Assembly (NCBI GenBank): GCA_027604185.1
Contig: JADGKB010000023.1
Location: 62,001-126,000, forward strand
Length of the DNA stretch: 64,000 nucleotides
Direction: 5' to 3'
DNA from: Boothiomyces macroporosus
Lineage: Eukaryota > Chytridiomycota > Chytridiomycetes > Rhizophydiales > Terramycetaceae
Numbering within the stretch: the first letter of the stretch is position 1; each line of letters begins with the position of its first letter. A program made the position numbers and the translations under genes. Below, piece by piece: positions 2,177 through 63,900 of the stretch. A model generated the notes under the pieces. It saw nothing but the letters and a program-made list of their open reading frames with translations. It had not been told where the DNA came from and did no database searches.

Positions 2177-2882
2177 TCATCTCTTTAATAGAGTCCATAA
2201 TAATCCACCTACACCGCCACCTAGATGTCCGGCATGGTCAATTCCAGTCTTTCTCCTTGTAATCAAGTTGTATAAATCATATGCAGCAACACCACCAATC
2301 GCTAAATAAGCCGGCATGGGGAATATCAATACCATTATTGAAGAGTGTGGATAAATCATTGCGTAAGAGACTGCCAAGCCGGAAATACACCCACTGGCAC
2401 CTAATGAAAACGCGGAATTATTAAAGAATATTGACGAAGCACTGGCTAGCATTCCAGATACGATATATAGCCCCATAAACCCTCTTGCGCCAAGGGTATG
2501 AATCATCTACATTAATATAAACTACAGTTGTCCCAAATTGGTACAGTACAAACATGTTTATACCCAAATGAATAGGCTGGTTGTGCGAAAAGTGTGAAGT
2601 TATCAGTGTGTGAGGGTATTCCAAAAAGTGAGAGTGTAGAGTAAAATGTTTGTACATGAAACGCAGCAAGGAAGAATCTATCGTTTTTATATTCTCTGCG
2701 TATACCCAAGTGAGGTATATCCCAGCATTTAAACCAATAATCGACCAAATAATTGTCTTTTCCGGGTTGTTCCTGGTGTACCTTTGAATAGTATTCAACT
2801 GTCGTTTTCTGAATTGATTTGAAATATTTCTTATTGAAGGAAAGGTTGGTTTGAATGAAAATGAGAATCGTTTTAGAAACAT
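2177..2882 (-). CDS. Mitochondrial rhomboid protease (PARL/Pcp1 type)
   Basis: Two exons (2526-2882 and 2177-2506) joined by a 19-nt intron at 2507-2525 give 228 residues. The catalytic serine is in GASG, the catalytic histidine in DHAGHLGGG, and an HLGINMF segment corresponds to the conserved histidine helix before the active serine. The N-terminus (about 30 residues, rich in Phe, Lys, Arg and Ser, no acids) looks like a mitochondrial presequence. PARL/Pcp1 rhomboids sit in the inner membrane and cleave transmembrane substrates such as dynamin-like GTPase precursors. Several hydrophobic helices support an intramembrane enzyme. Spliced phase is exact: the exon ends FGTT and resumes MIHTLGARG. 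Confidence 0.88.
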
Positions 2883-3967
2883 TTTTTGAGATTAGGAAAG
2901 AACGGAACGGATGCGGAAGAATAGGAAATCTATAATATCTCTGTATAACTAGAAGAGGTAACTCTAATACCCATTGATTGCAAAAGTTTTAAGTGCGTCT
3001 AAGTGGTTGATCATTCAAGTTGAATTTATAACTATCCAATACCAAGAATATCCTTCATCTAAATACAGCAATGTCAAAGATCGTAAAGGCCAAGTTGAAG
3101 GCAATTTCCAATGTAGCAAATAACATTCGTAATTTCAAAAGGTGGCAGCGAGGATTTCCATTGCGCTTTTAATTCATTCCAAAATCCATCTTTAGCCAAG
3201 ATACCATAAAGCAATATTTGTGATTTAGTGCGTTGTATTTGGTATCGTATGATCCTTAAAGAATCAAGAATTTTGGAAAAATCTGGGACAAATTCTTTTG
3301 TATACTCTATTTTGAACAGAAAGAGGATTTGTTACTTTCTATCCTGTCAACCGATCGATCAATGGTTCACTTTCCCATTTGTTTTCAAGGATATCCTTCA
3401 TTTACTCTTTGCCTTGATTATTTCAAGTACGGGGTCGAAACATTTGTGTTGGTCCGTCTAGGGCACGCTATAATTAAACTAAATACAGACCTCCAGCTCG
3501 GGAATAGATAGATCTTCAAGTTATCTTCAAATTCATATATTTTAGTCACGTGATCCCGGAGATTTATTTTCAAAAAATTGCAAAAAAACTTGTACTTAAA
3601 GCTGCATTATTGTAGAGGAATGATTTTCAATAGTTATTTCTCTCTATCATTACAGCAAGATAAGATTACAGTCTGATTGGCCCAGATTATAACGGTGTGC
3701 GCACAATGTTAATTCTCTGACTTCAGACTGTTACATTCTAATTTTACTATTGAGTTATGGTTATCATCTCTATTGAGTCTTCTCGATAGTATTGGATGAA
3801 TACGCAAAGGCGCTGGCAAGGGTTTCTGTAACCACATACGGGTCAGAATTCCTTTTGAATAATGATTACCATTTCAGTATGTTCGCGAGTCTGTAATTAT
3901 CTTTTAGCCTAATTCAAGTCATATGGCCATAGGTTAAAAACGTCATTCACCATTTTAATTAATTTAA
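2883..3967. other. 1.1 kb intergenic region, no secure gene
   Basis: It separates two divergent genes, so it should hold both promoters. A small frame at 3072-3173 (plus strand, 33 residues, Lys-rich, ATG to TAA) and open stretches near 3228-3511 were seen, but neither shows a family signature or consistent splice joins. They may be gene relics or chance frames. The rest is AT-rich without recognisable structure. Confidence 0.4.
3546..3553. promoter_or_regulatory. Palindromic E-box TCACGTGA
   Basis: The 8-base palindrome TCACGTGA is a full bHLH/bZIP-type E-box (CACGTG core). It lies about 415 bases upstream of the FAD oxidoreductase start and 660 bases upstream of the rhomboid gene. Function is inferred from sequence only; a match of this size can arise by chance. 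Confidence 0.3.
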
Positions 3968-5290
3968 ATGCTAGCTGCTACCCCAACCCCGTCTGCTTAC
4001 TGGCTAAAAGGAATAACCAACCCTAGACCAAATTCAATCTGGGCAAAGACAAATGTCGCTATTATAGGTGCTGGAATTACTGGTGGAAGTGTTGCATTAC
4101 ACCTGGCAAAATTAAATCCAAACATCAAAGTAACCGTATTAGAGGCTAGAGGAATATCTGGCGGTGCGACAGGTAGAAATGGCGGATTATTATGGCCAAG
4201 TATGCCAGATAGATGGAGCAACTTGGTAAAACAATACGGACTGCCAAAAGCCAAACAATTGATTGAATTCTCAATGATCAATGTAAGAGAAATCGAAGCA
4301 TTTTGCAATAGCTTACCTAAAGATGTTGAAAATCACCCCAAGTTGGAAAAGTTTCCCAATGGTGCTGTTCATTTGTTTACAGATATCAAGGAACTTGAAG
4401 AGTGGAGAAAGGAAATTGCTGAAATGAAGAGTGTTGGCGGGTGCTTGGATATTGGTATTTGGGACAAGAAGGAACTAGACCAGAGACTTCAAATCAAGCA
4501 AGATTTTGTTGGTGCTGTCCATGACCGTTTAGGTAGTCCAAGATTAACGATAGCTTACAGAGTCCGGCCTGCCTCTTTAGTTTACCATCTCATCAAAGAA
4601 GCTGGAAAGTTGTTTGATCAAGGAAAAGGAGAGCTGAATGTATTCACTGATACCAAAGTAGAAGCTGTTGAAAACGTTAAAGAGGGTCTGGAAATTAAAA
4701 CTTCAAAAGGAACCTTGCACGCAGATACAATCGTCTATTGCACAAACGCATTTACCAACGACTTGTTACCAAGCGCAAATATTACTCCAATTAGAAACCA
4801 AGTTGTTGTTACTGAACCAATTGATATTCCTTTTGATTTTGCTATTACCGCCAATGCCGGATATCAGTACATGTCTCCGAGGGAAGACGGTAGAATAGTT
4901 TTGGGTGGATTCAGATACTTGGCGCCAAACCAGGATGTTGGCCAAGCAGATGATGGTGTGCTTAACCAAACAGTGTCTAAAGCTCTTTCTAACCACTTGC
5001 CATCGCAATTTGAATCTTTGAAAAGCGTGAATATTGAAAATGAATGGGCTGGTATTATGGGCTGGACTACTGACCGATTCCCGCTAGTCGGACCAATCCC
5101 TCATCTGCCAAATCAGTATATTGTAGCAGGATTCTCTGGTCATGGTATGCCAAGAGCACATTTATGTGCAAAAGCAGCAAGTCAAATGATTCTTGGTGTG
5201 GATGTTGATGATTATTTCCCTGAATCTTTTTCAACTATTGATAGATTCGGAAAAGATGCTAGAAATATTTCGTTCAACTCGCACTTATAA
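3968..5290 (+). CDS. FAD-dependent oxidoreductase of the DAO family
   Basis: A single exon of 440 residues. The dinucleotide-binding motif GAGITGG lies at 34-40, followed by the second FAD contact region ending GGATGRNGG near residue 65-73, and a C-terminal FAD-binding stretch with FPLVGPIP and GFSGHGMPRAH. This layout matches the glycine oxidase / D-amino-acid oxidase fold, in particular the fungal and bacterial proteins that oxidise amines or amino acids. The real substrate cannot be told from sequence. No signal peptide is obvious. The stop codon is 10 bases from that of the convergent P2X gene, so transcripts must overlap. Confidence 0.85.
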   Translation: MLAATPTPSAYWLKGITNPRPNSIWAKTNVAIIGAGITGGSVALHLAKLNPNIKVTVLEARGISGGATGRNGGLLWPSMPDRWSNLVKQYGLPKAKQLIEFSMINVREIEAFCNSLPKDVENHPKLEKFPNGAVHLFTDIKELEEWRKEIAEMKSVGGCLDIGIWDKKELDQRLQIKQDFVGAVHDRLGSPRLTIAYRVRPASLVYHLIKEAGKLFDQGKGELNVFTDTKVEAVENVKEGLEIKTSKGTLHADTIVYCTNAFTNDLLPSANITPIRNQVVVTEPIDIPFDFAITANAGYQYMSPREDGRIVLGGFRYLAPNQDVGQADDGVLNQTVSKALSNHLPSQFESLKSVNIENEWAGIMGWTTDRFPLVGPIPHLPNQYIVAGFSGHGMPRAHLCAKAASQMILGVDVDDYFPESFSTIDRFGKDARNISFNSHL

Positions 5291-5300
5291 AGAATTGCTT

Positions 5301-6703
5301 TTATTGATTATTTTCTTGATTTGTTTGGATGATTGTATATTGAGACTCTCGAGGCTGCTGGTTCATTCTATCTTCTCGAAGATCTCCATTTAATCTTTTT
5401 TCCAATTCTTCTCTGTCCATAGTTTCAAGTCGCGCGGAAGCTTGTCGATGAATCTCTCTGTTTACCATTTCATTAAACAATTCAGTTTCTATTTTAGAAA
5501 GAAATACCTTCGAATTTAGCTTCGCTATAATTCTTTCTGTTTGGTAAAAAGTAAATCATGATATAATCGACTAGTACTCCAGCAATAGAAAACATGGCAA
5601 GTGCGGCAACCACGTTGTTAATGAATGCCAAAAAGTTGAAAATACCAATTGTTCCTGTTTGTGCAAATACAAATCTGACACCGTGGCGATCAAAAATGTT
5701 GTAAGAGCCGTCTGGATTGTACTGAATTTCAGTTAATTTGAAAAAAGATCGATCAATCATCACTGGGAGGTACTGATACAGTATATCTGATCCAGCGTTC
5801 TTGTACGAAATGGGTACTAAATTAAAAGGATATTACTAGAAACTATCAAACCCTCTGAACGAATAGGTTCATTTGGTGCCGCACTGTCCGCGTTAGATAC
5901 AGCATCAAAACTGAAATTTCCGTCGCCACAGTAACTGGCTTCCATTAACTGGGGAAAACTGACTATGTCTAGTGAAGTATTAAATGGTCTGGCTTGTCTG
6001 TAAGCACCATCATAGATCCCAAATCCTAATGCGCCACGGTCGCATGAACGGGTAATCTGTCCAGTCATATTCTGAGATGCGACTGTTCTAAATGCAGCAG
6101 AACCAAATGCAAACTTGCTTTGGACTCGGACACTAAATTAGCAAAAATTACGTATGGTCAATTTGAAATGTCAGTGATTCAACATCTGCCACATAATAGG
6201 TTTTTTTAGCTCCTTTGACGTTATTTCCCGAGCAGTCTCTTGTAGTGGGTATCGACAAATTACAACCAGTTGGGGCTGGAACGTTTGTAATGGAGACTCT
6301 TGTAGTAATAAATAATACTCCTTGTTCTCCTGCATATGGATAAACTATCTGGTCAGGCGTCCAAAATACACAACCGTCGGGGTTAAACGGGCCTTGAATT
6401 ATAAAGCATGTACCTGGGCTGCAATAGGTTGGAACGGTTGATGGGATTCCGTTCCCAAACCGGACAGTTGTTCTTACGCTACTTCCAACAGGCGAAAGCA
6501 ACTCCATATAACTCCCTGTCGTAACCTAATTTAGTATTTAATCACCATATTATAGATAATGAATGCTGTAATCAGAATTACTGCAGAATGGTAGATGAGT
6601 GCAAGTCTGTAATCCTTTACCACCACAATTTTAGCTGAGGTATAGCTAAAGCTCTTGATGCTACGGTCAGCATATTTGCTTACAATGAGACGACTTTGTT
6701 CAT
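5301..6703 (-). CDS. P2X-type ATP-gated channel, copy A
   Basis: Seven exons (6684-6703, 6546-6660, 6414-6525, 6152-6392, 5837-6132, 5508-5816, 5301-5488) give 426 residues; introns are 23, 20, 21, 19, 20 and 19 nt. P2X hallmarks: a first helix after KIVVVKDYR; an ectodomain with WTPDQIVYPYAGEQGVLF, matching the D-x-V-x-P...LF-V-x-T region of P2X; HGVRF; a second helix (residues about 325-350) and directly after it Y-S-E-A-K, the YxxxK motif that stabilises P2X channels. P2X proteins are trimeric cation channels opened by ATP; in protists several are intracellular. The 21-nt intron at 6393-6413 has no stop and keeps frame, so naive translation would insert seven false residues. The tail is 62 residues, charged. 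Confidence 0.88.
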
Positions 6704-6757: not shown

Positions 6758-8067
6758 TTATTCTGGTTTTGACACTTCCACGATAGTGTCTTTTTCTTTC
6801 TGAGCTCGACGGTCGACTTCTCTCTGGACGGCTTTGAGGAAATCTGCAGTTTCTAATGTTAGTGAATGCGACCTTCAAACTTGGCTTCAATGTAATTTCG
6901 TCTGTCAGGCAAGAAATGAATCATCAAAAAGTCAACCATTGATCCAGCAATAGAAAATAGAGCCAAGCCGGCAACCACATTCATAATGAAAGCAATAAAG
7001 TTAAAGATACCGATAGTTCCTGTTTGTACAAGAATGAATCTAATTCCGTGACGATCGTAGACTGTATATGAGCCATCCGCGTTATATTCAATTTGAGTTA
7101 ATTTGAAATACGATCCATCTATGTTTGCTGGCAAATACTTGTAAGTAATATCTCCTCCAGCATTACTGTAAGAAATTGGAACTGGGTATTAAACAATCTT
7201 ACTAGATACAATCAACCCGTTAGAGCGGATAGGTTCCCCTGGCCCAGCACCGTCTGCCGTTGAAACTGCATCAAAACTAAAGTTTCCTGCCTGGCAATAA
7301 CCAGCTTCCATCATTTGCGAGAAACTCACAATATCTAATGCAGTGTTAAAAGGCCGAGTAGTTCTGTAGTTATTGTCATATACTCCAAAGCCTAAGGGGC
7401 CTTTATCACACGAACGAACAATTTGCCCAGTCATATTTTGAGAGGCGACAGTTTTAAATGCTGCCGATCCAAAACCATAACTACTTTGTACTCTTACACT
7501 ACATTTAAAAGTAATTACGTATGATCGATTTGTATAGTGAGGGATTCCACGTCAGATACAAAAAATGTTTGTTTTACTCCTTTCACATTGATCCCTGAAC
7601 AATTTCTGGATGTTGGAATTGAAAGACTACAGTTTGTTGGAGCAGGGATATTTGTAATAGAGACTCTTGTGGTGATAAACAACACACCTTGTTCCCCAGC
7701 GTAAGGGTAAACAATTTGATCAGGAGTCCAAAAGATGCACCCGTCGGGATTATACGGCCCTGAAATCAATTAAAACGTACCTGGGGTGCAGTAAGACGGT
7801 ATATTTGTAGAAATAGGGAGGCCAAATTTGAGAGTAGTTCGAACCGATCCACCAACTGGAGTCAAAAGCTCCAAATAACTTCCAGAAGATATCTGAGTTA
7901 AGCAGTTATAACCATATTGTAAATAATATAAGCCGTAATTAAACACAGGGCAGTATAGTAAATAAGGGCAAGACGAAAGTCTTTAACCACCACAATTTTG
8001 GAAGACGAGTAACTCAGGCCATAGATACTAGCGTTAGTTTTTCTTACATTGATTTGATGTAATTCAT
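6758..8067 (-). CDS. P2X-type ATP-gated channel, copy B
   Basis: Seven exons (8048-8067, 7913-8027, 7781-7892, 7519-7759, 7203-7498, 6873-7181, 6758-6852) give 395 residues; introns are 20, 20, 21, 20, 21 and 20 nt. The first six exons have exactly the same lengths as in the tandem copy A (20, 115, 112, 241, 296, 309), so the gene was duplicated with all introns; only the last exon differs (95 against 188 nt), giving a shorter C-terminal tail. The same P2X landmarks are present: KIVVVKDFR, WTPDQIVYPYAGEQG, HGIRF, the second helix and the Y-I-E-A-K copy of the YxxxK motif. The stop lies 54 bases upstream of the copy A start. Strong lysines of the vertebrate ATP pocket are only partly conserved, so affinity may differ. 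Confidence 0.88.
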
Positions 8068-8321: not shown

Positions 8322-10519
8322 TTATTGCAAATACATTTTCTTAAATTCAGTACCATATTTAGCGGAAAATGCCTTGGGTTTGTTCTTTAAAGTTGGCGTC
8401 AAAAGGTTGTTTTCCACTGAAAACGGTTCACTTTCGACTACAATATCTTTTGGAATTTCAATTCGCCGCATTTTCATCTAATTAAAGAAATAATTACCAA
8501 TACAGCCTGTTCTTTCATCCTTTCCATCAGCATTCCCTTGACTTTTGAGGACTGCAACAAGGTTTGATAATCACCTTCAAGCTGGGTTTCCTTTGCCCAT
8601 TCACTTAATAACTGTTTATCTGGAACAATAACAGCAATAAGGTAGGATTGAAGTGATTCACCATGAACATAGATCTGAGAAAAGTGTGGGCACTTTAGCT
8701 TTGCAGCAATTGAATTCAAAGCCACGAATTCTCCTTGAGAGAGCTTAATTACGTTGTACATGCGATCAATTATCTTTAGTGTAGAGTTTTCAAGGATTTC
8801 TCCAACATCTCCCGTTAAAAACCATCCGTCTTCAGTAATAGCCTGCTTAGTCTTGCCTTCATTTTTGTAATATCCAGCAACTACTCCTGGTCCACGAATG
8901 CAAATTTGCCCCCTTGGATTTGGTGAATCAGTCACCAAATATCCCAATTCTGGAATATCAATCAATTTATATTCAACAGAAGATAATGGTACCCCAACAT
9001 GGCTTCCGTAGGATTGGTCATAGTCTCCAAATTGAGTGACAAAGCCCCCAGCACAGGTCTCTGTTAATCCATAGCCTTGCAATACATTTGCGCCGAATAT
9101 AATTCGCAGATATTCGGTAACTGTTGGGTTGATTGGGGCTCCTCCAGAAACAATCAAACGAGTATTTCCACCAATCACTTTTTGGAATTTACTAAAAACC
9201 AACTGATCATAAATAGAATTATTCCTCAATCTTCCATTTTCCAGCATTACCTTTTTTCTTTTATATGATAGTTCATACAAGAGCTTGTAAAAGAAGGAAA
9301 GTGCTTTTGCTTTCTGCTGAATACGATCATGCAGCTTGTTGATCACCAGCGGTACACTAAGAAATATCTACAATGAGTAAAAGTATACGGAAGGTTTGAA
9401 CTTTTCCAAACTTTCAATCAACTCTGATGAAGTTCCATCAAAAACTTCAATTTGACAACCTTGCGATGCCATTGTATGCAAGTTTAATCTTTCAAACATT
9501 AGCGAGATTGGCATCTACCGTTAATGTGACATTACAAATGAAATATGCTTGTCACTATGCTGAATTCGATGCTTAATTGGGATAAGATCAAGTGTTCCAG
9601 CAGCTTGAGATACCAAGTTCCGATGTGAGATCATAGCACCTTTTGGTTCACCGGTAGTGCCAGAAGTGAAACATATTGTAAATATATCAGACGGTTGTGG
9701 AATATAATGGGTTTTTTGGATTGATTTCCCAATATCTTCAAGTTCCTTGAATGCTACTAGTTTCACGCCAACTAAATCCGCCTTGTCCCTATTCTCTTCA
9801 TCGATTGTATCCAAATCGCATAAAATTATTTGCTTGGGTTAATGCCGAGTTACTCTAATGCTATTTCCTTTAGCACAAGAATCTAATATCTTTTCCAAGC
9901 ATTTTGTTGAAGTGATGATGCATGTCAACTCTGTATGATTCAAGATGTAATGCAAATCATCACCATCAAAAGACTCATACAGCGGAACAGACACCAATCC
10001 AAAAGTTAAACATGCTCAATAAATGATCACTTACCATAGTCTGCAATTATCCATTCAATACAGTTCCCAAGAAATATTCCTACAAACTGATATGAGAACG
10101 TCTCACGGTTAACCTCCGACTTTGGCTTCAGCTTTACTCTGTCAATCAATCCCTTTCCAAATGCTTCAACTCGATCTGCAATCTTTGAAAAGCTGAATAC
10201 ACTGTCGTTTTGGCTTAAAAAAGGCTTATCTCCAAATTCCTTTACTGCATCCCAAAACAATTGATACGCAGTAGTTTTGTTTCCCAATGCATCCAGAAGC
10301 GGAGTTCCATGATATCTGTTCTTATTTCTGTAAATTGCGGATTCATTGGGCTTCCTAGTCCTCGTAGCCTGAATTAAAGAGCTGTTACCACCGCCTGTTC
10401 TCTAAATGCAGCTGGATGAACGTCTGGCTCTGGCTTGGAAGCCAATAAACTTATAACCACTGGATTACAGACTAATTACCGATTGCCGACCCTAAAATTA
10501 CTGACCAAGTGTCAAACAT
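8322..10519 (-). CDS. Long-chain fatty-acid-CoA ligase
   Basis: Eight exons (10480-10519, 10389-10459, 10035-10368, 9854-10014, 9536-9832, 9389-9514, 8498-9367, 8322-8477) give 684 residues, typical of eukaryotic ACSL/FAA proteins; introns are 20 or 21 nt. The ATP/AMP-binding motif [10 protein letters not shown] is in exon 5, the [12 protein letters not shown] motif (A5) and [10 protein letters not shown] (A7) are in exon 7. The reaction activates fatty acids to acyl-CoA with ATP for lipid synthesis or beta-oxidation. The N-terminus has a short hydrophobic segment (residues 5-20), which fits membrane anchoring as in other ACSLs. Acyl-chain preference and organelle cannot be read from sequence. 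Confidence 0.92.
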
Positions 10520-11611
10520 TCTGAGATGATTTCGAAAAAAGTTTAAAATAAAACAGCAAATATTAATACCACAATTCTTACAGGTGGACTCTGTAAACCC
10601 AAACACAACTGTATGTTCGCTGTACTATCCATAGTTGAAATGAATCGTGATTCTTGGCGAACATTGAGCCACATGACCATCTGAAACCTGTAGAATCAAC
10701 AATATCGGGTCAGACCATATGATAAAATCAGCAATACTGGGTCAAACTAGTTGTGTTATATCTGTAAATTTCATTAGAAGCAGATGGGATTGTATTTCTA
10801 GATATCTCAGGTATTGGTAAGACCGCGATACACTAATTTGTAGAAGCGGTAATTTTAGTAACTTTGTATTTAGACATTGTTCGAACTTGACGTTGGTTTA
10901 AATTGATATTCAAATTCATGCAAACTTGAATGTACAAAGAACAACAGGAATCCCGTTTCGTATTATGAATTCAGTTCTTTGAAATGTAATAGTGCAAGCC
11001 TAAATACTCGTCTTTCGGTAACCCCTAAAAGAAACGGAATCTAAACTAAACAATTTCAAATGCGGAAACCCCATCCCAATGATATTTCCTACCCTTTACC
11101 ATATTCCTGCAATTAAATTATTAGATTTGGTTGAATGCTTTGGAATAAAGCAAAATTTATCAGCGCTATTCTCGCATCTCAACTTTGCAAGGAAATTGAT
11201 ATTCTTCAATCATTGTACATTCCTGAATAATTTAGTTGCGGCTACTATTGTTGTCAAATAAGAAGCTTAATTGATTTTGAGGGTACAAAAATACAACTAA
11301 CGTATGACGTAGATCGCGATTCATATTTTGGTATGCTGGCATTTATTAAAACTAATGTATTATGATAGATAAATTATTACCGTACCTGATATATGTTTAT
11401 AGCAGCATTTTAGCTTAGTTGGCATCTGTTAGCACCATTGGTAGTAGAATATTTGTCATTTGTATAATTACCCTTCAAATCACAGTAACCCTTCAATCCG
11501 GGTAGCATCTACTAATATGGCCATTTCTTGACTATGGTTGTTTACTATGTAATGAACAATCACTCATTGTCTTTCATTTACAATGGAAATTGTTGTTGAA
11601 AATTTTTAATT
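10520..11611. other. 1.1 kb intergenic region
   Basis: It lies between the divergent acyl-CoA ligase and the second family A gene, so it should hold both promoters. A 60-codon frame at 11079 is the only open stretch and shows nothing recognisable. A small imperfect direct repeat is listed separately. No RNA gene was recognised. Confidence 0.4.
10695..10749. repeat. Imperfect direct repeat, two units of about 23 bases
   Basis: Two copies of a CAATAtcGGGTCAgAC-like unit occur at about 10695-10717 and 10727-10749, separated by about 9 bases (the second reads CAATActGGGTCAaAC). The shared GGGTCA core resembles nuclear-receptor-like or bZIP half sites only by chance. It sits 180 bases upstream of the acyl-CoA ligase start and may be a regulatory duplicate. 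Confidence 0.4.
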
Positions 11612-12543
11612 ATGGACAGCGTCACTCTAACTTCAGTATCGGTTATCACGCTTACTTTTATAGTTTTAGTAGGCGAAGCGGGATATTTTCTTCGGGATGT
11701 CAATTCTATGAGAATTGCTCCAATAGGCTTGTTTGCCCAGATTACACTTTGTGCCACAAGAGCTCTCACTCTCATGATTGAATTACTAATTCCTGGTGTG
11801 AATTGTGTGCTGCTGGGCAATTTGGGGATGGCAATTTATGGTACTTCATACTAATGTAAGCCCTTTGGATTACTTGTTTGGATTCTGTGTTGCTAATTCG
11901 AGCCAGAACCTTTTTGCAGTTCTCTGTCAGTTCGGAAGTGAATAAGATATATACAGGAGTATGTATTGCACAAATAGCGCTATCATTTGCTATCCAGCTA
12001 TACGTCGCGTCCACTGCATATAATCTGCCTTTCAATTTGCCATATTGTATCATTGTGGCCAATTTCAGCCCTCAAACAATCACTTTGATTAACCGGTGTA
12101 TTCTGTACGCATTGTATGCCTATCCCTTTATTGCAAAAGCATACGCTTCTAAAAAAGACACAACTACAAATGCCTCTTCCTCAGACTCTAAAATTTGGGT
12201 GTGGCTCGGAATCAATAATTGCATATTCACGCTTTCAATCATCGCAATTGAATTGGTGGCAGCCGTTGTTGGTAATATTCCCAGCTTGGTCAATTGGCTA
12301 ACTCTCTTCTTTTCTTGTGTCAACTTTATCGAATCCAACATCTTGCTTTTGATTGTCGATGATACAAAGAAGCAAATCAAACAGAACTCTCAAAACAAAT
12401 CTGGATCTGATGCTAAAACCCGCACTGCCAAGTCACTTGTGAATCTCAAGAAAAGTGCTCAGGGTATTGATCAACCCGGTGCTTCAGGCGCGGAGTCTGG
12501 AAATCCTGTTACCAGTAAGCGCCAGGCTGTTGAAGAAGATTGA
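11612..12543 (+). CDS. Seven-helix membrane protein, family A copy 2
   Basis: Two exons (11612-11840, 11861-12543) around the 20-nt intron gtacttcatactaatgtaag give 303 residues. The join restores MAIYALWITCLD, matching the uninterrupted MEVYAIWITALD of the copy at 327. Seven helices are visible and a 70-residue polar, Lys/Ser-rich tail follows. The helix 1 stretch MDSVTLTSVSVI is also found in the broken fragment at 1328. Function is unknown; the family is receptor-like in topology. The family is represented only by these two genes and the fragment in this window. Confidence 0.8.
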
Positions 12544-14677: not shown

Positions 14678-18572
<3,895 letters not shown>

Positions 18573-46008: not shown

Positions 46009-46493
46009 TTATTGTTCCCCCATATAAGTAACCACGTTGTTGTCCGTCTCGTGCAATACGACTTTGTACAACTCGTAGTCTCTGTCTTTTGGAAGGACTT
46101 TAACCATCTCATTCCAAATAAAGACCGCAACATTCTCTGCAGTGCTATATTAACGCCAGATTACCTGGTAGTCTCTTTAAAATAAGGTACATCCTTGTCG
46201 ATATTCTTGTGGTCCAACTGATCGTGAATAGCTGCCTCCATATACTCTCTCAATTCAGTGAGGTTCATGACCATTCCATTTACTGGGTCAATATGTCCTC
46301 TAATTGTAACATGGACTGTGTTAGTATTGAATACCAGTGTAATTATGGCCTGCGATTAAGAATTATTACCGTGGCCATTTGGAGAGTTACATTTCCCAAA
46401 TATTTCCAAATTCTCTTTCTCTGACAAGTGAGGAGAGTGCAACCGATGTCCTGAGCAGAATGTTAAGGTTCTAGTGATATAGCTGATAGGCAT
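46009..46493 (-). CDS. 6-pyruvoyl-tetrahydropterin synthase
   Basis: Four exons (46370-46493, 46335-46349, 46165-46315, 46009-46144) give 141 residues, the family length; introns are 20, 19 and 20 nt. Exon 2 has just 15 nt. Zinc ligands are in CSGHRLHS and GHGHNY, the active-site Cys in [14 protein letters not shown] and the catalytic triad elements in LDHKNID and STAENVA. The enzyme converts dihydroneopterin triphosphate to 6-pyruvoyl-tetrahydropterin in biopterin synthesis, but bacterial-type homologues serve queuosine. The GMVMNL stretch favours the eukaryotic PTPS form. Confidence 0.92.
46335..46349 (-). other. 15-nt internal microexon of PTPS
   Basis: The exon gccataattacactg encodes HNYT and parts of two flanking codons and carries a zinc-binding His of the enzyme. 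It is shorter than either intron beside it (20 and 19 nt). The three exons join to [14 protein letters not shown], exactly the conserved PTPS motif. Confidence 0.85.
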
Positions 46494-51400: not shown

Positions 51401-53874
51401 CTGCAAATTTTCCAACAGCACGCTTAACAGCAACTTCATTTGATACGTTCAATAGTAATACTGCATCTAATCCAGATATTGGCGCTGAAACACTAGATTC
51501 GTTGCTGTTATCGTATGGCGCTACTAATGATCGATTTTTCGGACCTGAATTTCCCTTTTCCTTGGTGCGCTTCAAGTCCCCTTTCTTTATTGGTTTTGGG
51601 TCCTCATATCTACGTTACTATTTATTTACCCAGAAATTTCCCTTTCCAAGAGCTGTGCCTGTTGACGGGTTTTTGGAAAGTCAACTAGTACGTAGCCACC
51701 TGGCTTTTCAGGTTCTTGGCTCATTGCTTCTACTACTAAAGAAACCAGCAATGAATCGTCAGGGCTTAAACCTTCCATCATTGTCAATTGAAGTCTGGCT
51801 CCAATCTGTTGTTTTGATAATTTCTTATCACCAGATGAAGGCTTTTCTTTGACTTTCTTTACCGTAATATCGGCAATTGCGATTGCTTCTTTAACTAGGT
51901 CATCCAATCTAATAACTTTCATGTTGTAAGTTGTGGCAATAGCATTTGCAAGTGTTTTTTTACCGGAATACCTTTTTCCAATAATGGCAATTCTTAAGGG
52001 CACTGCAGGAAGCGGAACTGTTTGATGCGCCTGAGGGGGTTGCGATGTTAATTTAATAACATCTTCAACTGCTTGAGCCAATATATCATTCTTTTTAACC
52101 AAGTTCCTGCATTAAAATAGATTACTCTTCAACGGCCGCCCAGTTTCCATTATAATTTAGATATTCGTTGAATTCCTCCTTGTCTAATATTTTAACTGCT
52201 TCAGGCACTTCGACATCTTTCGATTCATTGGCGTCCTCATCCATGGTTTTTGGAATACAGTCCATTTCGAGAGGGATTTCTTTGTAACTTTCCAAATTAA
52301 CGGAATTAACAAAAATTGTCTTCCAGTCTCTCATTATTTTAGGAGGCACATCTTTCTTGTCATTTAGCACTTTGAAATCCACCACCTGCATTAAACGAAT
52401 TTACTTTAAAAGATAGCTGTAGAATTTGCTCTACAATTTTTTCCACAAACTTTGTGTTCCTTTCGTGCTTTAGAGCTTTCTTTTGATTCATAATTTCGCG
52501 GTGCTGTTCAATTTGCATAAAGACGTGTTGACGATATTCTCCCTGAGTGTTTAAATATAATTGATGTTCTCGCTCCAAAGCTTCTTCATACTCTTTTTGT
52601 CGCTGAGCGGCATATTGCTGTTCACGATAAATATAGTTCTCGTGTATTACTTCCTTTTCGTGTCGGATATGAAGTAATCTACATTAAATGATATTACTGC
52701 TCGGCAATTCTTCTCTCTTGCTTTGATTGGCGGAGCAATTTGCCTTGAATCAATTCATCAAGTCTTTCTTTTTCAATAGACTGCTGAATATTTTGACAGG
52801 ACAATAAAATCTTTTTGCGCTGCTTCTCTCTTTCTTTTCTTGAATTTTCAGTTTCTTGTCGATGTATCTGCTATTAATATTTGTTACTCTAATCTTTTCA
52901 ATATACTGCTTTGTTTCTTCAGCAGTGTTGAAATTTGGATCGTTGACTATTTTTCGAAGTTCTTTCAAATGCAGTGAAGGATCCATATTGGATTTTGTCT
53001 TTATAAATTGAACAACATCTGATTTGGAATCTCTTGTTTCTATCAAGTCCTCGTTTGAGTCTACTTTTTTCAATTCTCCTGTAAATAGCCGATGCTCAAA
53101 AGTCTCTATTCTATTGCTAATATCCTGAATCATTTTAATCTGGATAAGTGCAGTCTTACATCTGGGATTTTGGCTTTTCCAGGGATAGGCTTTACTATTT
53201 CTAAATCTGAAAGTGCAGACATTGGTTTCGCGACTGGCAGCTCTACTTTTGGTTTTGGTCGAGCTGTTGCTTTCGGAATAGGTGGGAGTTCCTTTTTCTT
53301 CATTTCAACCACCAAGCCTGTTGATTTTTTGTATTGAAACTCTGCCCTTTTTAAATTTGACTTTAGTATTGTCGCAAAGTGATCTACTGAATGCAAATCA
53401 TATGGTAGAACCGGATTTTCTTTAATGTTCAAATTAGTTGATTCCCCTTCTATATTAGTAACTCTTACCAACAGGGGATGATGGATACGAGTCAAACTTT
53501 GGTTTCTTTTTGAATATTTTCTTTGACTGGGTAAAGTGGTCTTTTGGAAGTATCTCTAGCGCGCTCTTTATTTGATACAGCAGCTTGGTGGTGCTTCCTG
53601 GTTTATTATTTATTAAATCCAAAGCAAATCCTCCGGATAATTTAATCCCAAGTTTCTGTCTAAGAGTGCTTTCTAATGAAATGTAGTTTTTAATAAGTAC
53701 TTCAGTCGCATTGCCTGGGAGGTAGTGCTGTTCGAAATCGTCTTGAACTCCAAGTATAGACAGCAATTTTCCAAAGTTGTATCCTGTACTAAATTCTTGG
53801 TCCAATTCCGTGGGGTTGATCGTTGCAGGAAACCCCACGTCTTGTTTTAACCATTGGGTTAGTATTTTAGACAT
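48427..53874 (-). CDS. SPEF2: Sperm flagellar protein 2 homologue (SPEF2/KPL2/CPC1)
   Basis: Fourteen exons give 1728 residues (human about 1820). Exons 5'->3': 53469-53874, 53160-53449, 52888-53139, 52698-52867, 52405-52678, 52124-52385, 51630-52104, 51210-51609, 50922-51186, 49855-50901, 49481-49834, 49016-49459, 48517-48995, 48427-48495. The CH-like domain starts MSKILTQWLKQDVG; coiled coil follows; an adenylate-kinase-like domain has Walker A IGKRYSGKKTL; EF-hand-like and helical regions close the protein. SPEF2/CPC1 is part of the central pair apparatus of motile 9+2 axonemes (C1b projection), so the organism should make a swimming stage. Thirteen introns are 19-23 nt. Confidence 0.93.
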
Positions 53875-54704: not shown

Positions 54705-55830
54705 TTAGTCTATATCTTCGTCAGAATCAAATTCTTCATTGGCAGTAGGTGCTGCAGAAGGCGCCATCGAAACCTTTCCGCTTGCGCTGGTTTCTGTTCT
54801 GATCTTGGTTGTTCCAGGCTGTTTTGGATGGTCAGACCATCCCTCATTGAAAATGTAGGAAAATACATTTAAAATACCCCCCAAATTAATACTGATATTC
54901 ACCAAGATGAATACCCAGTCTGGTCTGTAATCAAACAGATGGCCAACAACATCTACGGTTAGTTAAAACTATACATGGAACGGTTCCGGACCATTGCATA
55001 AAATCTATGGTTAATTAGAAAGTACAGTTGATAATGTAGAACATTGTCTTTTTTACTGTTCTTCGCTTTAGCTCAGCTTTCCTGTCAATCTTTGGCAGAG
55101 CAGAAGGCTTGCCATCAACGGTTGAAGGCATCATTTCAGACTGCGCAGTTGCCATTGTTAAACTGTCAATCTTTTTAATTACAAGAAAGAAACAGATGGC
55201 CGTAATGTTGAACAACCCTACTTCAACACAACCCATAATCCAAGCCAGTGCTTTAGTTCCAGTGATTTTAAAGTAACACCTACTGTTAACGCTCTATAAC
55301 CAATATAAGCATGGGCCAGAAAATGGAGCACCAATAGCGGCAAAAACAAATGCAAAAACGGAACACATTGCGATAATTTTCCAATCCCAAGCTCCAGTAT
55401 TGAAATGCCAATCTCTGCAGATTGTCAGGTAGCTATTTACAGCTATAGAGGTAGTAATGGCCATATTCAAAAAAATACCAAAAGCGACGTAAGCTGCCGC
55501 CATTTGACATCCTAAATTCTGAGGTCTCGTATGTCCCCAAATCAACCCATACCCTTGATTATTCATATGGCCAACATATAGCATTATATCTGTAATCGCA
55601 ATGTACATGGGGAACCGCACTTGTGCTGGGCAACTCCCTCTTAATCTATATCTATTCCATGCTCGATAGAGAATGTATAACGAACCGAGGAATCCAAGCT
55701 GCATCAGTGGCCATCCTATTCCGTACCTAATTCAGTTTACCAAATACACATAATAATATCCCGGCATCGGAACCATCATAATTGTCGGGTCATCCCAATC
55801 TGGAGTGTCTTGCAATGCGTATTGAGACAT
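54705..55830 (-). CDS. Seven-helix membrane protein, family D copy 1
   Basis: Five exons (55748-55830, 55301-55726, 55026-55279, 54975-55004, 54705-54952) give 346 residues; introns are 21, 21, 21 and 22 nt. Exon 4 has only 30 nt. Family marks: LQDTPDWDDPT at the start, PMYIAITDIMLYVGHMNN in helix 2, WGHTRPQNLGCQMAAAYVAFG before helix 3, TGAWDWK before helix 4 and NISINLGGILNVFSYI in helix 7. Seven helices, then an acidic tail. It has introns near the N-terminus and in the GTVPY region that the two sister genes lack, and lacks one that both have. Receptor-like, function unknown. Confidence 0.8.
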
Positions 55831-57347: not shown

Positions 57348-58363
57348 CTATTTATTCATTGATTGCACCTTTGTTACTGGACTCTCCTTTGCTGATTTTA
57401 CCTCTACGGATGTGATGCTCCTTGGTTCTACTTTATCGTCAGAGACCCCTTGATTGCTAATGTAACTTTTAACATTCAGTATTCCACCGAGATTAATAGA
57501 GAAACAAACTAGCGCAAATACCCTACGATTAAATCCACCTACCACGTCGGTCTGTAATCGAATAAATGGCCTACTATATACGGAACAACTCCAAACCACT
57601 GGAAGAAAACTACCGTTAGCTAATATTACAGTAGATAATGTACGGTCGAATTTTCTTTACCGTTTCTCGTTTCAAAACGGATCTCCTTGCCATGGTTGCT
57701 CGGGATGCTGTAGATATAGAGTCAACTTTGGCGTAAATCAAATAGAAACATATAGCGGTGCTACCAAACAAGGTGGCTTCTACCACAGTAAATATCCAAG
57801 CAAACAGCTTCCCGCCATCTGCTTTCAAATAACACCTGCATTATCAAAGCTTACCAGTAATAGCAGGGGCCTGTAAATGGAAACCCAACTCCTGCCATAA
57901 TGAGCGCGAATGCAGAGCATACGGTTATTAATTTCCAGTCCCAGGGCCCAGTATCAATATAGATATCTTTGCAAACATTGAGGTATATACTCAAGACATA
58001 CGAGCATGTAATAGACATGTTCAAGAACACCCCAAATGACACAAAGGAAGCTGCAAACTGACACCCAACATTCGCCGGTCTGGTGTGTCCCCAAAGAAAC
58101 CCATACAACAAGTTATTCATATTACCAACATACAATAACAAGTCTGTGATTGCTGTATACAAGGGAAATCGTACATGCGTTGGGCAGCTACCTCGTAGAT
58201 AAAGTCTCCGGAAAACGCGAAAGACTATGTAGGCACAGCACAGGAAATTTATCTGACACATTGGTATAGCTACTCCATATACATAGTAATATCCGGGGGT
58301 TTCAATTAGTTGTATTGTAGGATCATTCCAATCGGGAGTATCTTGCAATTGGAATGACGACAT
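57348..58363 (-). CDS. Seven-helix membrane protein, family D copy 3
   Basis: Four exons (57855-58363, 57630-57835, 57543-57609, 57348-57522) give 318 residues; introns are 19, 20 and 20 nt at the positions of copy 2. The family marks LQDTPDWNDPT, FPLYTAITDLLLYVGNMNN, WGHTRPANVGCQFAASFVSFG, TGPWDWK and SINLGGILNVKSYI are present. Helix 5 to 6 loop carries VLKRETVKKIRPYIIY, shared with copy 2. The conserved WDW, GC and RP residues would be candidates for structural roles. Ligand unknown. Confidence 0.8.
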
Positions 58364-58445: not shown

Positions 58446-59881
58446 TTACCAAGAATTCATCATGAATTTTTGCACTGCTGCCAAAGCTTGATATTGGACA
58501 TCAGTATTCTTGTGGGCCATTAACCCCATTACAGCAGTTTTACCGCCAGTTTCAACCAAAACACTATTTTAATCCAATGTTTACTTTTTCGCATTGTTTG
58601 CGTATTTGCAATATTGTCCCAAGTCATATGCTGCGACAGACAACACTGTCGGGTCCTCACTAGTTTTGATAATGTCTACCAAAGTTCTATTATTAATATG
58701 AATCAACTTGACCAGTTCGAATTGGTTATCATTCAGTTTGTTGCTATTTAGTTTCCAGAATTGTTCCGATAGGTGTGGAGGTGACCATTCAAGTCTCCTT
58801 GACAATACTTCGGTAGAATATTCATCAAACGTACTGGCGTTAACTAATGTTTACGATAAAGAAGCGACGTGGTGAGATAATTCTTCTCTGACATACATCA
58901 AATCTTCAGTTATTTCTGGATCTGACCATTTACGGACAGACAGGGTTTCAATAACACCCAATAGCTTGTGGCCCAACATTGGAATAATATTCTCTGTTGG
59001 TGCATTGATGAGCATATTCTTGAATGTAGAAATTACGATTCTTACTACCTTTTCTTTGATTGCCGATTTAGCAATATCTCTCAATACTGGTATAACATGA
59101 TATTTCCTAATGTAAAGAATAAATTACTTTTCCAGATCGGCAGCTATTTCCTTGACAAATGACAGCAACCAGATGGAATAAATTGCTTGGTACTGAACTT
59201 GCGGTGACTGTCCAGCCTTGTTCAAGATGTTCAACAGCCTGAATTAGTATTATAGTACGCTAAAACACCATCGGCCTGTTTAACAAATTCTTTTCTATAC
59301 ATATTAATTGCCAAGAGGGATTGCAAAAATTGCAAGCAGATGTCAACAACATTTGAATTGGTACTGGCCAACTGAAATACGACCCAAGTAAATAATTCGG
59401 TAGGATCAGCTGGGTAAGAAGAATGGGATTCTCCCAATAAGAATATCATGATCTTTGCCGCTTTCAACTGAATATACTCGTCTTCCTTTGACAATAGTCT
59501 GGTATTAGCAACAGATACTTGTTGAATAAACTGAATACAGACTGATCAGCCAAAAACAATTGCGCAACTCCATCTTGCTGAATAAAATCATCAATCAAAA
59601 CCAGAATCGATTGCAGTGTATCGACCCGCGACAATTTGTTCAACAAAGCAAGGAATAGGGTAACGTACTGCTGTTTATCTGTAGTTCCGATTTCAAATTG
59701 TCGGATGAGTGTTAATTCTTGCTCATTAATCAGAGATGCTTTTTGATATCCCTTGGTTAAGAAAGCGTACTTCCCAAGGAATCGTTCGACTCTTAATTAC
59801 ATTGGTCTGATCCAAGAGATAATCGTTGTGGCTGCTGATGAGCGGTGCGTCGATGCTGACATCCTCTTCCTTTTCTGCCAT
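58446..59881 (-). CDS. VMA13: V-type ATPase subunit H
   Basis: Seven exons (59771-59881, 59519-59751, 59259-59498, 59128-59238, 58855-59106, 58585-58833, 58446-58563) give 437 residues; introns are 19, 20, 20, 21, 21 and 21 nt. The start region VIKSRTIPWEGYQKASLI spans intron 1 and is typical of subunit H; the C-terminal domain has RRLEWSPPHLSEQFWK and DPTVLSVAAYDLGQYCKY; ending GLMAHKNTDVQYQALAAVQ. The protein is an all-helical HEAT/armadillo-like solenoid in V1 that silences free V1 and couples the assembled pump that acidifies vacuoles. Confidence 0.95.
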
Positions 59882-60390: not shown

Positions 60391-61054
60391 TCAAAATTCC
60401 TCATACTCGACAGATAGCCCGCAGCTACATTTCAGTATATCTCCGTCTTGCTGATAGTCGTGCTTGTGTTCTTCTTCCAGTTGGCGAGAATTCCACAACG
60501 TCGTTCTGGTTTTCTTTCTCAATTCATTCATTTGCTTCTTATGCTTCTTTACTTTCCGCTCCTCTTTGATTTTCTCTTTCTTTTCAAATTCCTTATCTAG
60601 CATTTCTTCCGATCCATACTTGTTGAATGCAAATTGCTCTACTTGCTTGCGGAGGTACAGCAGCATATTCGAATAGGTTGATTTATGCGGATTTGGCTTG
60701 ATCCAAACCGGAAGTTTCTTTTGGTCCCGCAATTCGCCTTGATTAGCTTAACTTACTCTCAGTTAAAAGATAATCCTGTCGGCACTCTGTTTTCGTTAGC
60801 AGGGAATATAATTCTGGCTTTTCCTTTTTACAATTCAGACATACTTGTTCCTTGTAGTACTTGTAAATGTTTACGTCAATATCTATTGATTCGCAGTGCT
60901 GACACTTTAATCCTTGTTCAACAAGCTGGACTTGCTCTTGTTCATTCTTTTGTTCAGTTTCCTCTTGCGGCAACAGGAATCCTCCTCTGGTATCTTCCAT
61001 CGTCGTCAAATCATATTCACAGTATTTCAAGTCAATTTTTCGTTTTTTGAACAT
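60391..61054 (-). CDS. DNA repair protein XPA/RAD14
   Basis: Two exons (60757-61054, 60391-60737) around the 19-nt intron gtaagttaagctaatcaag give 214 residues. The zinc finger is CQHCESIDIDVNIYKYY with a second pair CLNC; LLTKTECRQDYLLTESEL matches the DNA-binding domain, with its last residues restored by splicing. The C-terminus has the HxH...CxCG part (EHKHDYQQDG, LKCSCG) also known in XPA. XPA verifies and holds damaged DNA in nucleotide excision repair and contacts RPA and TFIIH. Shorter than human XPA (273), mainly in the N-terminus. Confidence 0.9.
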
Positions 61055-62205: not shown

Positions 62206-62421
62206 GGATATTTTGATTACTTGGGGCTTAAATATGGCAAACAAAAACAGTGGCGCACTTTGTGCATTTCCAAATTTCAAAGAGAGTCAAAGAGCACTGC
62301 CAAATATGCTCAAAAAGACTGGGATAAGATTGGGTACAAAAAACGTGTGCCAATGTAAATAAATGTATAAGTGAAATAAAGCTGGTGGAAATTGTAGCCC
62401 CAAAATTTTGACATTGATCTA

Positions 62422-63900
62422 TTAATTTCTATGGAGATTAGCTGCAAACACTCCTACAGCTGAAATGCATGCACCTAATATAAATACTAAGCCTGGCATT
62501 TTCATACTAACACCTAGTTCCCACACTAGTCCACTAATGGCAGGGGAAAATGTTCTGGCAAGTGCGGAAAGTGTACTAGCCAATCCATGTGCAAGGCCTA
62601 GATTTTGCGGAACTTGGGATTCTGTGATTAATAGCATAACAGCAAGGTATGCTAGAGCTTCTGAAATCCCTATGCCAATCATGATCAATAATATTACAAT
62701 GAATCGCAGCTTTTCAAGACTAGATAATATAGTGATTAATAAAAACATGGGTATTAAGAGTAGCATGCCGAATTGATATGTTGTTTTAGGAGTTTTGAGG
62801 AATTGCAGGAACCGATCGAAAAAGAATAATTGTGTGATGAGTTTCGAGCTTGCGCTGATGGTAAACGACAATGCCGTGTCTCTGGAATTCATTTCTATCC
62901 CGCCTGACTGTTTCGAGGCAGCGAAATATAGAGGCAGCGCGGTAACATAGCTCATATTGACATAAGCGATAAGACAATATAGTAATATTGGAGTGAGTGT
63001 TTTCCATGACAGAAATATAAACTTTGGTGCATGAAGCGGCTCTTCTTCGTCGTTTTGATCTTGCTCCATTGGCATTTCAACTTCTGATCCTGTCGTAGTT
63101 CTCCTTTTGGGTTGGTAGCTATTAATGTCCACCATACTGTCATTCAAACTGTCTGATAATTCAATTTCAAAAGAATCCAAATTGTCTATATCATCCACTT
63201 GCTCATAGGTATTTTTCTCAATCAAATAGAACTTGATTATGAAAAAATCAATCACTGCCAATGCCACTCCGATATAGCAGGTTAATAGATAAGGATATCT
63301 GAATTAGAATGTTGGTCTACCTCCCAAATAAACCATTTTTATCGAAAACCCCTGGATACAAGTCAGCTGGATTCGCTAGTAACCCTCCCAGGAGTGGTCC
63401 CAACATCTGAGTAATACCATAGACACTTCCGTAAAACACATATCCCCAAGTTCTACTCCTTTGGTCTCTTGCTTACATTACAGACGAATTACCAATATCT
63501 CCAATCATCCCCTTCGCAACGGTTGAATTCGCTCCAAAGAATCCTGCCACGAATCGGCACATCCATGTGAGAGCAAAAGATTGACTGAATCCCAATATCA
63601 AAGTCACAATCGCACACGCGATTAATCCCATCAGCAGTATTGGCTAGATTAACAAGTACTCACTTTTCTTCCATACTTGTCTGACGCTCCTCCCCAAACC
63701 ACATTCATTAGAAACAGCGGAAGGTAAAATGCCGATCCTAATAATCCTGCATGGTATCCAATAGCAGACTCTGGTTCGTTGGGTAACAAGAACCGCACCA
63801 TATATGGAAACAACGGTATAATCGTTCCATCTATTACTGCCTCCGGTATCAGCGATGTGAGCAGAATTATGATTTTGTATTTTACATTTGGCGAAGCCAT
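62422..63900 (-). CDS. Major facilitator transporter (ZIF/YCR023C-like), copy 2
   Basis: Four exons (63664-63900, 63493-63643, 63321-63471, 62422-63298) give 471 residues; introns are 20, 21 and 22 nt. Twelve helices. SDKYGRKPILLMG spans intron 1, the same place as the GC-AG intron of copy 1 at 22782. An apparent in-frame TAA near 63477 lies inside intron 2; splicing gives MIGDIARDQRSRTWGY, matching the paralogue. A long acidic central loop (residues about 205-255) is as in copy 1. The copies share the C-terminal half (LLITESQ, LAHGL, SPAISGLVWELGV). Substrate unknown. Confidence 0.85.

Follow-up and report, generated by a model that had tools for sequence, protein, structure and literature searches.

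Putative major-spliceosome introns of 19–23 nucleotides in nuclear genes of a chytrid fungus close to Boothiomyces

Can the ordinary spliceosome of a fungus work on introns of only about 20 nucleotides (nt), and what would set such a length? The question is raised by a 64,000-nt stretch of DNA, referred to as the window (C23:62001-126000 of a genome assembly of 15.2 Mb in 216 contigs), throughout which an initial annotation had placed introns of 19-23 nt. Judged from their sequences, the GT...AG segments of this length in the nuclear genes of the chytrid host are likely introns cut by the major (U2-type) spliceosome through intron definition, and they would be at minimum packing.

The intron lengths were determined with a gene finder that reads both strands and combines coding statistics with donor, branch and acceptor matrices under a flat length prior of 12-200 nt, by which no length is favoured. 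As a decoy control, A and T as well as C and G were swapped in all splice signals of the finder. The window and a genome sample of 20 stretches of 10 kb each (200 kb), taken from ten other contigs outside the training set, comprised 264 kb of the 15.2-Mb genome, in which coding introns of up to 200 nt were visible. In the window, 81 of 125 introns had 19-23 nt, compared with 2 of 120 obtained with the decoy signals; the counts at 19, 20, 21, 22 and 23 nt were 15, 34, 23, 3 and 6, respectively. An earlier flat-prior run with less trained matrices had resulted in 72 of 122. The genome sample gave 214 of 396, which brings the total for window and sample to 295 of 521 real calls versus 13 of 518 decoy calls. 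This dominant class consisted of 79 introns of 19 nt, 124 of 20 nt, 57 of 21 nt, 25 of 22 nt and 10 of 23 nt. In all bins outside it, from 12 to 200 nt, the real calls were fewer than the decoy calls. The uniform narrow size class typical of ultra-short intron systems was found, accordingly, across the 264 kb. A plain motif scan of the window peaked at 19-21 nt as well, with 10, 14 and 13 hits where Markov-1 sequences gave about 1 at each length. The introns of 19-23 nt in the initial annotation were borne out by these counts, and its outer coordinates, 2507..63663, coincided exactly with the first and the last flat-prior introns (2507-2525 and 63644-63663).

Since the flat-prior run recovered 18 of the 27 introns supported by homologues (see below) and none of the three contradicted by them, it undercounts by about a third. 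The true number in the window is probably about 120, as an estimate. The previous count of 99 is therefore plausible beside the recount of 81 and this estimate, and an extrapolation from 214 per 200 kb gives an estimated 16,000-24,000 tiny introns genome-wide. Length-informed runs of the gene finder predicted 142 and 143 introns in the window. Such runs overcall introns, as the decoy version of the 143-intron run yielded 106; they were useful for protein models and their counts were not relied on, the sole use in counts being 30 introns of the 142-intron run, which were compared with homologues. A second class near 40 nt, suggested by a slight excess at 38-43 nt in the motif scan and the sample run, was rejected, the decoys exceeding the real calls at 38-44 nt (29 vs 14). 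Two longer candidates, of 57 nt (30603-30659) and 72 nt (33711-33782), resemble coding sequence by eye when set beside their paralogues. A depletion of lengths divisible by three was not seen in window and sample, where 57 of the 295 introns had 21 nt. An in-frame stop was present in 35 of 47 introns of 21 nt versus 103 of 169 of 19 and 20 nt; the finder favours stop-containing introns, and nothing is concluded from these values.

The removal of the segments was compared with homologues in four genes, where alignments with computed junctions were judged by eye. The homologues supported 27 of the 30 predicted introns, with lengths of 19 nt (3), 20 nt (9), 21 nt (13) and 22 nt (2), and the coding sequence left after removal matched homologues from PDB and GenBank across the junctions. 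For SMC3, 14 of 16 predicted introns fitted; the other two, 17669-17686 and 15056-15076, are false and would remove conserved residues. All three predictions in the histidyl-tRNA synthetase (HisRS) gene fitted PDB 4g85. In the gene of a fused dethiobiotin synthetase and DAPA aminotransferase, three of four fitted PDB 4a0g, in which the two enzymes are fused likewise and which we take to be from a plant; the fourth, 28334-28351, is false, being contradicted by that alignment. The 7 of 7 predictions in the V-ATPase subunit H gene fitted 6xbw_P; the alignment has a one-residue gap at one of the junctions and another such gap a few residues from a second junction.

At 18377-18416 of SMC3, two GT...AG units of 20 nt stood back to back without an exon between them, and the homologues were contiguous across both. 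This single case could alternatively be one 40-nt intron. The pair recalls the spliceosomal twin introns of fungi (stwintrons), two introns acting as one (PMC8469720). In stwintrons, however, one intron is nested within a signal of the other, whereas the SMC3 units are adjacent by sequence. At most SMC3 junctions, the deposited Boothiomyces proteins lack the intron segments in the alignment, so the annotators' models seem to splice the tiny introns, and the feature may sit undescribed in databases. The deposited SMC3 of Boothiomyces sp. JEL0838 (1478 amino acids) is fused to a CRAL-TRIO (PF00650) protein, which is a separate neighbour at 13785-14609 in the window models. This fusion (window 13785-18572) is likely an annotation chimera and may indicate that gene models are affected.

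The anatomy of the segments resembled that of U2-type introns. All 295 introns of 19-23 nt started with GT and all 295 ended with AG, partly by construction, as the gene finder demands AG and prefers GT, with GC permitted at a penalty. The donor was AG/GTA(A), and U was commonest at +5 (43%) and +6 (57%). A YTAAY-like branch motif, complementary to the GUAGUA of U2, was located between GT and AG, the three occurring in fixed order. The branch matrix was seeded with such a motif and a poor match was permitted at a fixed penalty; NTAAY was detected in 249 of 292 introns of 18-24 nt (the earlier flat-prior run of the window together with the sample run). In these 249 introns the branch A was at position 14 (121), 15 (86), 16 (30), 17-19 (8) or below 14 (4), so that 245 have it no earlier than position 14. 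The distance from the branch A to the intron end was 5 nt (118) or 6 nt (94) in most introns. The gene finder restrains the branch-to-end distance only, and the edge at position 14 was not imposed by it. Among the 27 supported introns, 24 had the motif under a slightly looser rule, with the A at 14-16 in 23, at 18 in one and below 14 in none. The two spacings were nearly independent (Spearman -0.15, p = 0.02, n = 243).

The host was assigned through the SMC3 protein, which was 96% identical to that of Boothiomyces sp. JEL0838, 85% to that of Boothiomyces sp. JEL0866 and 55% to that of Globomyces; with Terramyces, the identity was 74% over 68% of the length. By sequence, the window belongs to the nuclear genome of a chytrid that stands close to Boothiomyces, and the earlier call of nuclear opisthokont-like DNA was right. 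Boothiomyces is a genus of Terramycetaceae (Chytridiomycota, Rhizophydiales), isolates of which came from soil and water, on pollen (table in PMC11210171). The Rfam scan of the window gave no matches at the gathering cut-off, and no tRNA was found in the window by ARAGORN.

The small nuclear RNAs (snRNAs) U1, U2, U6 and U12 were looked for in the genome using Rfam. U1, U2 (two copies) and U6 were found with canonical recognition motifs: U1 begins AUACUUACCUG, U2 has GUAGUA and U6 has ACAGAGA. The U12 search of the genome gave no match, the control genomes being likewise silent, and the same was true of the search for RED. By eye, the U2 copies, at C80:60682-60874 and C178:9607-9797, differ mainly in the 3' half. 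The genes of SF1, Yju2 and Slu7 and a U2AF65-like gene are present in the genome, and the presence of Slu7 speaks against a loss of distance-sensing or short-intron factors. Cwc25, which begins MGGGDLNLKKSWHP, keeps Gly2-4, Trp12 and Trp24, the residues named in PMC9505925. In Stentor the Cwc25 glycine motif is lost and the Isy1 N-terminus is not conserved (PMC9505925). The loss of the Cwc25 glycine plug was rejected as a general need for tiny introns, the glycines being intact here. Two Cwc25 (Cir_N) matches of equal score, C49:3542-3652 and C100:5137-5247, are perhaps haplotype copies in the assembly. Isy1, both in the genome model (L041, 1434 onward) and in Boothiomyces JEL0838, begins MAPKTLAQKQE, without the usual N-terminus. 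The protein begins MARNEEKAQSMLYRF in Spizellomyces, Fimicolochytrium, Chytriomyces and Polychytrium, and the starts in Globomyces, Kappamyces and Gorgonomyces also deviate from MARNEEKAQSMLYRF. M.RN was present near the Isy1 start in 62 of the 120 matches listed (of 364). A link between the Isy1 N-terminus and tiny introns is a lead only.

How the length would be set can be considered from the packing of the two helices. Some 8 nt at the start of an intron are engaged by U1 and then by U6, and U2 pairs with a run of about 5 nt that precedes the branch A; the sum of 8 and 5 nt places this A at position 14, which is the observed edge. The 5' splice-site helix and the branch helix would thus be packed end to end with no spacer, leaving the intron at its physical minimum, and an AG just past the branch helix would end it. 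Intron length would be set by two packing floors rather than by one ruler. Deletion bias would shrink the introns to these floors and selection would stop further loss, so that the narrow size range would arise from deletion bias pressing against the floors; a similar argument was made for mikrocytids (PMC10245619). As a weaker step, the changed Isy1 N-terminus would let a lariat loop as small as 14-16 nt fit. The previous suggestion of intron definition on a minimal substrate fits this arrangement, with the 5' splice site and the branch motif standing almost end to end. In its widest form, the proposal is that a non-parasitic fungus has had all its introns reduced to the smallest size that the major spliceosome can physically handle, with independent floors (14 nt from 5' splice site to branch, about 5 nt from branch to end). 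The spliceosome would have been retuned to a lariat loop of 14 nt through loss of the N-terminal arm of Isy1, a change convergent with Stentor and shared by several Rhizophydiales (Globomyces, Kappamyces, Gorgonomyces), in which tiny introns would then be expected as well. This wide form is tentative and, taken as a whole, rather doubtful.

Several observations weigh against splicing by an ordinary spliceosome at minimum packing, or against parts of it. The usual donor consensus, GUAAGU, has G at +5, and the introns depart from it with G in 18% and U in 43%. NTAAY was lacking from position 9 on in 43 of the 292 introns of 18-24 nt, and the branch positions depend on a rule in which the search started at position 9, the last motif was taken and counting began at the first G. 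The helix lengths in the packing arithmetic are general values rather than ones read from a structure of the chytrid spliceosome. The U1 match, 68.8 bits, was just below the Rfam cut-off of 69.5, and the U2AF65-like gene scored 230.7 bits versus a cut-off of 310.3, the family having a below-cut-off match also in 2 of 14 control genomes; the low score is perhaps due to exon-by-exon gene matching. The first junction of the Isy1 model is unsure, with a three-residue difference from the JEL0838 protein, and relatives that may lack tiny introns also have the Isy1 change. The deposited Isy1 starts may not all be right: those of one Batrachochytrium and one Geranomyces model come late. The decoys have to span reading frames that real introns interrupt, which probably inflates the decoy background, and a few longer introns could be concealed by it. 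Finally, the removal of the segments is read from the coding frame and homologues only.

The last point would suit segments that are cut from the DNA, like the internal eliminated sequences of ciliates, or skipped in translation instead of being spliced from RNA. This is highly improbable given the fixed order of GT, YTAAY-like motif and AG, the U1, U2, U6 and splicing proteins of the genome, and a host that is a fungus and not a ciliate. An artefact, in which assembly frameshift errors or the tuning of the gene finder make apparent introns, deserves hardly any credence: the length-informed run does overcall (decoy 106 vs 143), but the flat prior with swapped-base decoys gave 2 vs 81 in the window, and PDB and GenBank homologues align across the junctions.

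It is unlikely that the spliceosome gauges the total length of about 20 nt with one ruler, the branch and the 3' AG being placed to fit. The total length is sharp, with 124 of 295 introns at exactly 20 nt, and the weak anticorrelation of the spacings leaves room for such a ruler. However, the variance of the sum, 1.05 (n = 243), is near the 0.69 and 0.55 of the separate spacings added, as for nearly independent spacings, and the sharp edge falls at branch position 14 rather than at one total length. That the tiny introns are real but accompanied by a missed class of ordinary longer ones (above 200 nt, in untranslated regions, under the decoy level or outside the sample) is quite unlikely. The flat runs end at 200 nt, coding introns alone were visible in the 264 kb covered, and the decoy level is probably overestimated; against this, every bin of 24-200 nt was below the decoy, and 27 of 27 supported introns in four genes had 19-22 nt, although one pair could be a 40-nt intron. 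Two floors met by the major spliceosome remain our preferred account of the segments.

The suggestion of the initial annotation that this is a candidate for an undescribed feature is not supported as regards its kind, since uniform introns of similar or smaller size were published for heterotrichs, mikrocytids and nucleomorphs (PMC9505925, PMC10245619). The annotation's list of the shortest classes, Stentor at 15-16 nt and the nucleomorph at 18-21 nt, agrees with the literature and lacks the mikrocytids at 16-17 nt. Stentor coeruleus, a heterotrich, has introns of 15-16 nt with the branch A at position 10-11 (PMC9505925). Like the chytrid, it has uniform tiny GT-AG introns genome-wide, a near-fixed branch A 5 nt from the end and a non-conserved Isy1 N-terminus; it keeps all snRNAs, of which U1, U2 and U6 were found in the chytrid. 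In contrast to the 19-23 nt, the A mostly at 14-16, the clear YTAAY-like motif and the intact Cwc25 glycines of the chytrid, Stentor has no strong branch consensus and no Cwc25 glycine motif. The mikrocytid introns are likewise very uniform and tiny, but Mikrocytos mackini is an obligate parasite with 224 predicted introns (PMC10245619), whereas many thousands are estimated in the 15.2-Mb fungal genome; transcript data of M. mackini show splicing, not of every copy (PMC10245619). The introns of the Bigelowiella natans nucleomorph, 18-21 nt (as cited in PMC10245619, PMC12316389 and PMC5014332), have almost the same lengths as those of the chytrid; the nucleomorph is, however, a relict endosymbiont nucleus and the chytrid's an ordinary fungal one. 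Paramecium and Nyctotherus also have solely ultra-short introns, but longer ones, of about 25 nt, and in Paramecium there is strong pressure on lengths divisible by three (PMC5014332); in the chytrid, 21-nt introns are common. Trichomonas introns are down to 23 nt (PMC12316389).

The new part appears to be the host, a fungus from a genus isolated from soil and water on pollen, with, by extrapolation, thousands of such introns. The published uniform tiny-intron systems that were found belong to ciliates, a relict nucleus and parasites. In the titles and abstract starts of the open-licence PMC literature, no report of tiny introns in Boothiomyces, Terramyces or Rhizophydiales was found, which is not proof of absence, and none of such introns in any chytrid or free-living fungus; the excerpts of PMC13391722, PMC11210171, PMC12075339 and PMC3569864 held nothing on tiny introns. 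Surveys using a length cut-off miss genomes such as this one, an example being a large intron survey in which introns under 30 bp were left out in all species (PMC10639083). A culturable fungus with this extrapolated number of tiny introns and canonical U1, U2 and U6 motifs would permit direct tests of minimum intron size in a lineage related to yeast, for which structures of the spliceosome are available.

Table. Genes with homology-supported introns and the other introns of 19-23 nt called in the window (positions of the window).
Feature	Position	Strand	Basis
SMC3 gene, 14 supported tiny introns	14678..18572	-	96% to JEL0838 SMC3; alignment
SMC3 intron, 19 nt	18539..18557	-	homology-supported
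SMC3 intron, 20 nt, back to back with 18377..18396	18397..18416	-	homologues contiguous across both
SMC3 intron, 20 nt, back to back with 18397..18416	18377..18396	-	homologues contiguous across both
SMC3 intron, 20 nt	18286..18305	-	homology-supported
SMC3 intron, 21 nt	18203..18223	-	homology-supported
SMC3 intron, 21 nt	18119..18139	-	homology-supported
SMC3 intron, 20 nt	18003..18022	-	homology-supported
SMC3 intron, 21 nt	17442..17462	-	homology-supported
SMC3 intron, 22 nt	17298..17319	-	homology-supported
SMC3 intron, 21 nt	16859..16879	-	homology-supported
SMC3 intron, 22 nt	15910..15931	-	homology-supported
SMC3 intron, 21 nt	15702..15722	-	homology-supported
SMC3 intron, 20 nt	15290..15309	-	homology-supported
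SMC3 intron, 21 nt	15110..15130	-	homology-supported
Fused dethiobiotin synthetase / DAPA aminotransferase gene, 3 supported introns	27729..29920	+	PDB 4a0g alignment
Biotin fusion intron, 20 nt	28093..28112	+	homology-supported
Biotin fusion intron, 21 nt	28641..28661	+	homology-supported
Biotin fusion intron, 21 nt	29349..29369	+	homology-supported
Histidyl-tRNA synthetase gene, 3 supported introns	46832..48391	+	PDB 4g85 alignment
HisRS intron, 21 nt	47089..47109	+	homology-supported
HisRS intron, 19 nt	47498..47516	+	homology-supported
HisRS intron, 20 nt	47838..47857	+	homology-supported
V-ATPase subunit H gene, 7 supported introns	58446..59881	-	6xbw_P alignment
V-ATPase H intron, 21 nt	58564..58584	-	homology-supported
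V-ATPase H intron, 21 nt	58687..58707	-	homology-supported
V-ATPase H intron, 21 nt	58834..58854	-	homology-supported
V-ATPase H intron, 21 nt	59107..59127	-	homology-supported; one-residue gap, junction uncertain by one codon
V-ATPase H intron, 20 nt	59239..59258	-	homology-supported; one-residue gap few residues away
V-ATPase H intron, 20 nt	59499..59518	-	homology-supported
V-ATPase H intron, 19 nt	59752..59770	-	homology-supported
Intron, 19 nt (first of initial annotation)	2507..2525	-	flat-prior gene finder
Intron, 21 nt	4533..4553	+	flat-prior gene finder
Intron, 19 nt	5489..5507	-	flat-prior gene finder
Intron, 20 nt	5817..5836	-	flat-prior gene finder
Intron, 19 nt	6133..6151	-	flat-prior gene finder
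Intron, 21 nt	6393..6413	-	flat-prior gene finder
Intron, 20 nt	6526..6545	-	flat-prior gene finder
Intron, 21 nt	7182..7202	-	flat-prior gene finder
Intron, 20 nt	7499..7518	-	flat-prior gene finder
Intron, 21 nt	7760..7780	-	flat-prior gene finder
Intron, 20 nt	7893..7912	-	flat-prior gene finder
Intron, 20 nt	8028..8047	-	flat-prior gene finder
Intron, 20 nt	8478..8497	-	flat-prior gene finder
Intron, 21 nt	9515..9535	-	flat-prior gene finder
Intron, 21 nt	9833..9853	-	flat-prior gene finder
Intron, 20 nt	10369..10388	-	flat-prior gene finder
Intron, 20 nt	10460..10479	-	flat-prior gene finder
Intron, 21 nt	11215..11235	+	flat-prior gene finder
Intron, 20 nt	11841..11860	+	flat-prior gene finder
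Intron, 20 nt	19054..19073	+	flat-prior gene finder
Intron, 20 nt	19241..19260	+	flat-prior gene finder
Intron, 23 nt	19616..19638	+	flat-prior gene finder
Intron, 23 nt	20016..20038	+	flat-prior gene finder
Intron, 20 nt	20902..20921	+	flat-prior gene finder
Intron, 20 nt	21465..21484	+	flat-prior gene finder
Intron, 23 nt	21744..21766	+	flat-prior gene finder
Intron, 21 nt	22164..22184	+	flat-prior gene finder
Intron, 20 nt	26856..26875	-	flat-prior gene finder
Intron, 20 nt	30481..30500	-	flat-prior gene finder
Intron, 20 nt	31466..31485	-	flat-prior gene finder
Intron, 19 nt	32280..32298	-	flat-prior gene finder
Intron, 20 nt	32709..32728	-	flat-prior gene finder
Intron, 19 nt	33429..33447	-	flat-prior gene finder
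Intron, 19 nt	33855..33873	-	flat-prior gene finder
Intron, 21 nt	38352..38372	+	flat-prior gene finder
Intron, 23 nt	38603..38625	+	flat-prior gene finder
Intron, 19 nt	39842..39860	+	flat-prior gene finder
Intron, 20 nt	40140..40159	+	flat-prior gene finder
Intron, 20 nt	41386..41405	+	flat-prior gene finder
Intron, 21 nt	43252..43272	+	flat-prior gene finder
Intron, 20 nt	46145..46164	-	flat-prior gene finder
Intron, 19 nt	46316..46334	-	flat-prior gene finder
Intron, 20 nt	46350..46369	-	flat-prior gene finder
Intron, 21 nt	48496..48516	-	flat-prior gene finder
Intron, 20 nt	48996..49015	-	flat-prior gene finder
Intron, 21 nt	49460..49480	-	flat-prior gene finder
Intron, 20 nt	49835..49854	-	flat-prior gene finder
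Intron, 23 nt	51187..51209	-	flat-prior gene finder
Intron, 20 nt	51610..51629	-	flat-prior gene finder
Intron, 19 nt	52107..52125	-	flat-prior gene finder
Intron, 19 nt	52386..52404	-	flat-prior gene finder
Intron, 19 nt	52679..52697	-	flat-prior gene finder
Intron, 20 nt	52868..52887	-	flat-prior gene finder
Intron, 19 nt	53450..53468	-	flat-prior gene finder
Intron, 21 nt	55280..55300	-	flat-prior gene finder
Intron, 20 nt	57523..57542	-	flat-prior gene finder
Intron, 20 nt	57610..57629	-	flat-prior gene finder
Intron, 19 nt	57836..57854	-	flat-prior gene finder
Intron, 19 nt	60738..60756	-	flat-prior gene finder
Intron, 23 nt	62429..62451	-	flat-prior gene finder
Intron, 22 nt	63299..63320	-	flat-prior gene finder
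Intron, 21 nt	63472..63492	-	flat-prior gene finder
Intron, 20 nt (last of initial annotation)	63644..63663	-	flat-prior gene finder

Other genes of the window were noted in passing. Two adjacent similar genes with tiny introns are located at 5301-8067, the first of which matches the P2X receptor (PF00864), a family that, to our knowledge, is missing from most fungi. In each of the clusters 29953-33925, 40903-43686 and 54705-58120, the predicted proteins are alike and look multi-pass by eye; the Pfam scan of one cluster member (54705-55899) gave no match. A long gene with many tiny introns is found at 48427-53874, and its predicted product may resemble the flagellar protein SPEF2.

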